From Bacteroidota bacterium (lineage in GTDB: Bacteria > Bacteroidota > Ignavibacteria > Ignavibacteriales > SURF-24): 42,711 nt of DNA. Shown here piece by piece: positions 36,083 through 37,408 of this stretch (within the stretch, counting starts at the first letter, position 1; each line of letters opens with the position of its first letter). The stretch lies in assembly GCA_030706145.1 (NCBI GenBank), contig JAUZPB010000027.1:1-42711 (forward strand). The letters are read 5' to 3'. The notes beneath the pieces are model-generated. The model ran no database searches. It was given only the letters and a program-made list of their open reading frames with translations, and was not told where the DNA came from. Position numbers and translations under genes: made by a program.

Positions 36083-36889
36083 TCAACTGCCAGATCTGGC
36101 GTCAGCCAGGCCGAAACCCAGAGAGTTTAAAAAGCCAAATCCTGTATCATAGCCGATTTGCAGAAGCTCTTTGTTGCCACGTAATCTAAATGGAGTAATA
36201 TTGCCAACAACGATGCTTTTTCTATGGTTTATTTCAATAGAAAGTTTGGCTGTAAGTTTTTTCTTATTTCTTAATTTATCCTCGATGAAATTTCTATCCC
36301 AGTCGAGTTTTACCATAGCATTTGGAAGCTCTTTGTTATAAATAAGGCTATATTTTCTTTTAAGGTCCTCTGTAATGATCCTGCTTATATCATAAGGGTT
36401 ATCCTTAAAGGTCAGGTAAAAATTAGTAGGGATATCTTTTATTTTTCTTCGAATTGAGATAATAACAGGGGAGCGCAAATCAAATTCCATCTGATCGTTG
36501 AAAATGGGATCAGGAAGAACTTCGAGATTCTGAATTGTAAAAACAGTATTTGGGCATCTTTTAATAGCTATTTCGCTTTTTGCTCTAATTGATTCAAGTA
36601 CATTATCCTTGATATACTGGTCTATTAGAGGAAAGGACAGATAAAGATAAGCGTTATGGCTTCTTAAGTAAAGTTTATTAGATCTATGCAGGACATTTTC
36701 GAAATGAAGTGCAAATGTAAATAGTCTGAACGGTTTATCAGCAAATCTATAATTTTTCTGTGATAAAAAGTCCTTTAATCCATCAGAATCCAATCCGAGT
36801 AAATTAGAGATTTCCTCAGATAAAGATGAATTGTAATTATATATAAATTCTTTTTCTTTTGTCGCTTTAAGCTTTATTAAAAGTCTCAT
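36083..36889 (-). CDS. cas6: Cas6-like CRISPR RNA endoribonuclease, orphan
   Basis: A 268-residue protein with the Cas6 RAMP layout: first ferredoxin-like strand MRLLIKLKA, then FIYNYNSSLSEEISNLLG, FRLFTFALHFEN, and the C-terminal glycine-rich loop ITPFRLRGNKELLQIGYDTG followed by FGFLNSLGFGLAD (G250-G260). In canonical Cas6 the N-terminal helix ends LHdkGY; here it reads DFLSQKNY, so Ser43 replaces the expected catalytic His. Cas6 normally cuts pre-crRNA in CRISPR repeats, but no CRISPR array or other cas gene is seen in the window. The gene stands alone, downstream of a small membrane protein gene on the same strand but 243 bp away. A non-catalytic RNA-binding role is possible. Confidence 0.72.
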   Translation of the reverse strand: MRLLIKLKATKEKEFIYNYNSSLSEEISNLLGLDSDGLKDFLSQKNYRFADKPFRLFTFALHFENVLHRSNKLYLRSHNAYLYLSFPLIDQYIKDNVLESIRAKSEIAIKRCPNTVFTIQNLEVLPDPIFNDQMEFDLRSPVIISIRRKIKDIPTNFYLTFKDNPYDISRIITEDLKRKYSLIYNKELPNAMVKLDWDRNFIEDKLRNKKKLTAKLSIEINHRKSIVVGNITPFRLRGNKELLQIGYDTGFGFLNSLGFGLADARSGS

Positions 36890-37132
36890 TATTTTCTCAA
36901 TGAATCTTAGAGAGCGCCCTGAAGAGAAATATTAAAATGTTAATATATTAAGCTAAAACATTTTTGTTTCATTATCAACTTACTTTGGATGAATTATGGC
37001 CACAATGGGAAAAAAAGCATTATTATTGGCAAAAAATAAACAATTTCACCAAAACTTGGCTATCGACAAAATACATAGTGTAAAAATTACGAATTACTAA
37101 ATATAGCTATATAGAGAAAGTATATACTCCTA

Positions 37133-37408
37133 TTATTCTTTTATATAAACCGAACTTGGTATTAGCTTTTTCTTATTATATTCAGGTGTCATTTTTTGTC
37201 CGGCTTGTTTGGTTTCCTTCTTTAATTGCGAAAGAAGAGAATAGGCGGATCTTAGATTCCAAGAATTAGTCTTGAGGATTTCCTGGTAAGATGGTACATA
37301 AATATCATTGTGCTGATTAAGGTATTTCCTATAAGCATGTAATTCGAGGTGAAGGCGAATTATATACAAAGAAACCACCCATACTACTATTAGCCCAAAT
37401 AGCTCCAT
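37133..37408 (-). CDS. small membrane-anchored protein, unknown function
   Basis: A 91-residue protein with one N-terminal membrane helix (LFGLIVVWVVSLYIIRLHL) and a polar C-terminus (SYQEILKTNSWNLRSAYSLL and a Lys-rich end). A strong AGGAGGG lies 5 bases upstream of ATG 37408, which makes it a real gene. No family recognised. It is on the same strand as the Cas6-like gene, 243 bp upstream of it, so cotranscription is possible but not shown. Confidence 0.65.
   Translation of the reverse strand: MELFGLIVVWVVSLYIIRLHLELHAYRKYLNQHNDIYVPSYQEILKTNSWNLRSAYSLLSQLKKETKQAGQKMTPEYNKKKLIPSSVYIKE

Follow-up and report, generated by a model that had tools for sequence, protein, structure and literature searches.

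A stand-alone Cas6-family protein of Ignavibacteria that lacks the catalytic triad and is probably kept as a non-cleaving RNA-binding protein

Profile searches and alignment identified a Cas6-family protein of 268 aa that has lost the whole catalytic Tyr-His-Lys triad and is encoded by a stand-alone gene at positions 36083 to 36889 on the reverse strand of a 42,711-nt contig from Ignavibacteria (the entire contig is called the window below). This protein is probably a Cas6 paralogue that has moved out of CRISPR-Cas and is kept as a non-cleaving RNA-binding protein. If this is true, the set of Cas6 proteins described below, which lost the triad several times, stand alone and persist under strong selection where neither Cas1 nor RAMP genes were found, would cleanly exemplify exaptation of a CRISPR protein to a different RNA function. 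The point matters to annotators as well: the protein earns the label ‘CRISPR-associated endoribonuclease Cas6’ above the cut-off, yet both cleavage and a role in CRISPR are doubtful.

The reading frame is open and starts with ATG. Its product matches a full-length Cas6 profile above the curated cut-off (TIGR01877 cas_cas6, E 1.2e-23, 84.6 bits against a cut-off of 58.65), as well as PF01881 Cas_Cas6_C (8.6e-19, score 69 against a cut-off of 23) and PADLOC Cas6b (1.6e-34). A first-pass annotation of this DNA had proposed a Cas6-like protein, to be checked with HMMs, and had pointed to a C-terminal glycine-rich loop; the profiles bear out the identity and the loop is present as GYDTGFGFLNSLGFG (residues 246-260), its five glycines being common to canonical copies. 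Solved structures matched by sequence search include Pyrococcus Cas6 and its paralogues. Judged by its sequence, the protein is a true member of the Cas6 family.

The triad was followed in an alignment of 32 relatives, which was then enlarged to 82 drawn from the class as a whole. Tyr28, His43 and Lys55 (window protein numbering) occur in every one of 50 canonical Cas6 proteins of the order (100%); the window protein has Ser, Ser and Arg at these positions and thus lacks the triad of a CRISPR endoribonuclease. The helix motif LH[DE][KI]G[YF] of the relatives reads L-S43-Q-K-N-Y, with no canonical His elsewhere in the motif in the alignment. The first-pass annotation was therefore right about Ser at the usual position of the catalytic His; it understated the catalytic loss, as Tyr28 and Lys55 are gone too. 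An alignment of the solved Cas6 structure 5YI6 with the canonical family recovers this Tyr, His and Lys; we take them as the counterparts of Y31, H46 and K52 of PfuCas6, residues with described roles (PMC3652601).

Two other proteins share the loss. Together with L002 (genome G001) and L003 (genome G002), both from the same family of bacteria, the window protein forms clade A, with support 100/100 in the 82-row tree. L002 and L003 are 45-47% identical to the window protein, and all three triad residues are absent from them (Ser; Lys/Gln; Gly at the respective positions). A profile built from the three members scored 493-532 bits on the members and at most 229 bits elsewhere in 391 genomes of the class. 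Clade A retains G246, G250, G252, G258, G260, K179, P141, P233 and the W197-D198 pair. Other positions have changed: His62, His68, Arg76, Lys110, Arg178 and Arg199 are invariant in clade A and rare or absent in canonical copies; Ser86, 94% conserved in canonical copies, is replaced by Phe in clade A and in clade B described below; and the loop lysine K254, 84% conserved in canonical copies, is Leu in the window protein. A structure model from two sequences (mean pLDDT 46.9) was too poor to place residues of the cleft, His62 and His68 included.

The gene is under purifying selection. L002 and L003 share 85% amino acid identity (15% of residues differ) with dN/dS of 0.042, a rough figure given the high dS (∼2), although nonsynonymous change is still plainly suppressed; canonical pairs, at 0.05-0.10, are constrained to an equal degree. 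The conservation in relatives that the first-pass annotation had suggested looking at was observed, with the gene kept in its triad-less state, also in G002, where neither Cas1 nor RAMP genes were found.

The genome of the window (G000; 98.5% complete, 345 contigs) has a single Cas6 copy, this one. Neither Cas1 nor RAMP (Csm/Cmr) proteins were found in the whole assembly, nor were arrays of repeats ending in ATTGAAA; a general scan for arrays over 405 kb of its other contigs was empty. In the window itself 41 cas protein queries had no relative, no arrays were found and remnants resembling CRISPR repeats were looked for near cas6 and not seen; the gene thus has no detected genetic link to a CRISPR array or to cas genes, as had been stated at first pass. 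The same Cas1 and RAMP searches against G002 were negative. Two further searches carry less weight: the Cas3-HD family gave no matches even in G001 with its Cas3 helicase and is uninformative, and the DevR search is weak, G001's own Cas7 being barely above the cut-off. It is possible that a CRISPR locus is hidden in a gap of the window genome assembly, the contig having broken at a CRISPR repeat. The window contig ends (38090-42711) in a gene that in G001 (L035:1-4216) precedes a type III-A locus, and its last two genes are the same two that precede that locus.

Among the three genomes of clade A, CRISPR-Cas was found in G001: a type III-A locus with Cas10 (L035) and a type I locus with Cas3 and Cas7 (L036) and with Cas1. 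Each locus carries its own triad-intact Cas6 and an array, while the triad-less copy is on another contig, so that the genome has two Cas6 proteins of the first kind and one of the second.

Loss of the catalytic His is not confined to clade A. It is absent from 12 of the 82 Cas6 proteins of the class; the other nine, also stand-alone, include five in clade B (G005 and G078-G081; support 100/100) and single copies in G022, G057, G082 and G330. Among the single copies Lys was lost only in G082, G330 and G022; G057 keeps both Tyr and Lys. In four of the five clade B copies the Tyr position is held by Lys or Arg. All nine pass the NCBI cut-off for ‘CRISPR-associated endoribonuclease Cas6’. The tree requires at least four changes of state; the claim that clades A and B are surely of separate origin was dropped, since the AU test does not reject a single clade (p 0.29). 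An origin from mobile elements is unsupported, as viral contigs contained no relatives.

None of the eight genes of clades A and B has an interrupted reading frame. Selection on clade B is strong: dN/dS is 0.016-0.10 (0.016 in the G080/G081 pair), the same range as across the three triad-less pairs that could be computed, and synteny of clade B is kept across four genomes. The window and eleven other His-less regions (232 kb in total) contained no homologues of the 41 cas queries and no arrays, whereas about 19 of 29 canonical copies lie some 1.5 kb or less from a cas gene, despite shorter flanks. Triad-intact and triad-less Cas6 occur together in five genomes (G001, G022, G078, G081 and G330). 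Searches of G080 turned up no Cas6 besides the His-less copy and no RAMPs, and its Cas1 has shrunk to a fragment that contains a stop.

Directly upstream of the triad-less cas6, on the same strand, is a gene (37133..37408) for a small protein of 91 aa whose only hydrophobic segment is N-terminal (hydropathy peak 2.38). Genes for such proteins (91-97 aa) hold this position in all three clade A genomes, and the family's remaining two genomes have them as well, there without any cas6. Over the ∼20 kb compared, the window has no other neighbour in common with the G001 and G002 genes. The ‘stress and membrane genes’ setting described at first pass is specific to the window genome, except for the conserved small membrane-protein gene. 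Upstream of cas6 we also found a conserved 39-nt block, GTTGATAATGAAACAAAAATGTTTTAGCTTAATATATTA (36941..36979, reverse strand), which ends 51 nt before the cas6 ATG; it lies 40-51 nt before the start in all three clade A genomes, which share TTGATA-17 nt-TAGCTT, and none of 300 shuffles was as good in either comparison. The block reads like a promoter. Cas6 may then have its own promoter and an operon with the small gene may not exist; as the two genes are 209-243 nt apart, each with its own conserved upstream block, the operon would be a putative one. A connection between cas6 and the small membrane protein next to it, by which a ribonucleoprotein would be localised to the membrane, is possible but weakly supported. 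The only Rfam match in the window was a tRNA.

Canonical Cas6 proteins of Ignavibacteria type I-B/III loci (e.g. L004 and L005 in G001) are 38-39% identical to the window protein over the whole length and share with it the glycine-rich loop and the helix motif; unlike it, they keep Tyr, His and Lys, and most adjoin cas genes. Closer in kind are PfuCas6nc and PhCas6nc of Pyrococcus (PDB 3UFC; 3QJJ/3QJL/3QJP), which are non-catalytic paralogues with the Cas6 fold; 3UFC and 3QJJ were found by sequence search (E 7e-14 and 3e-12 with the canonical profile). As a Cas6-family protein without the catalytic His, the window protein resembles Cas6nc. It departs from them in being bacterial, with no Cas1 or RAMP detected and a small membrane-protein gene beside it. 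PfuCas6nc, moreover, is accompanied in its organism by a catalytic paralogue (PMC3652601); no such partner was found in G000. What is new relative to the Pyrococcus proteins is the repeated loss, the stand-alone setting and persistence where no CRISPR genes were found. The literature on orphan or stand-alone Cas6 gave no direct match.

These comparisons bear on the alternatives. A protein serving CRISPR in the manner of Cas6nc would bind repeat RNA and, acting in trans for arrays at other places in the genome, modulate or chaperone crRNA. PhCas6nc does bind CRISPR repeat RNA without cleaving it (PMC3727216), and five genomes hold both kinds of Cas6; still, this explanation is improbable given that G000 and G002 lack detectable Cas1, RAMP proteins and arrays of the ATTGAAA type, that G080 has only a broken remnant of Cas1 and no RAMP, and that in no case was the triad-less gene found in linkage with cas genes. 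Slightly less improbable, though unlikely, is a shifted active site, with RNA still cleaved through other residues, e.g. basic ones or the clade-specific His62/His68. The precedent is Sulfolobus solfataricus Cas6-1 (Sso1437), which like the window protein has neither the catalytic His nor the catalytic Tyr; SsoCas6 cleaves without His by means of Lys25, Lys28, Lys51 and Arg residues (PMC3652601). The invariant basic residues gained by clade A, and Lys or Arg at the Tyr position in most of clade B, would fit such a shift. Sso1437, however, has retained Lys51 along with further basic residues; it cleaves repeats and is encoded in a CRISPR-Cas-rich genome (PMC3652601, PMC4041471). Clade A has lost the equivalent of Lys51, varies at the His (S/K/Q) and Lys (R/G/G) positions of the helix and, at the adjacent invariant position of the helix, carries the acidic Glu26.

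If the gene were a functionless leftover from the decay of a CRISPR-Cas locus, its active-site residues and the linked cas genes would be the first to go, but decay is very hard to reconcile with the open frames, with the suppressed nonsynonymous change in the three computable pairs, with a core retained outside the active site, or with the upstream block of clade A and the synteny of clade B; we give it very little credence.

Under the favoured explanation, that of a non-cleaving RNA-binding protein, a Cas6 paralogue would have left CRISPR-Cas and, with the loss of its Tyr-His-Lys triad, given up cleavage. The retained two-RAMP fold and glycine-rich loop would still bind RNA, probably an endogenous transcript, which the protein might chaperone, stabilise or regulate at the level of translation; it may have been recruited to a non-CRISPR RNA, as supposed at first pass. 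In genomes that still have CRISPR, the triad-less protein could compete for repeat RNA. Given the SsoCas6 precedent (PMC3652601), a protein without the triad may nevertheless cleave, so that the window protein could have some residual cleavage. A precedent for action on a non-coding RNA that lies outside arrays is Sulfolobus solfataricus Cas6-3 (Sso1422; PMC4041471); its RNA, however, is similar to a CRISPR repeat and undergoes cleavage, unlike what is proposed for the window protein. A wider scenario, in which Ignavibacteria Cas6 was repeatedly freed from CRISPR to become a non-cleaving regulator of host transcripts, with a small membrane protein bringing RNA to the membrane in one lineage, is offered as a tentative conjecture.

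Several minor observations concern the related genomes. The gene after the His-less cas6 of G022 encodes SpoVG (PF04026; L136:8248-9314), and a SpoVG gene is also located inside the intact type I cas locus of the same genome (L146:7844-8113), suggesting that the His-less Cas6 of G022 derived from a cas6-spoVG segment. The clade B cas6 of G078 has a tandem duplication of its 3′ end (L140:9672-9855; 92 nt, 93% identical, at the gene end). On contigs G078:C36 and G079:C354, Cas1 domains are part of open frames ∼780-800 aa long, which may be fusions. Finally, G003, a genome of the same family as the window genome, has an array (L038; G003:C52 near 21-24 kb) with a period of ∼75 nt and 22 copies of GTTGTTTTAAATATCTTC; a Cas1 is nearby, the genome has no Cas6, and the system is possibly of type II.
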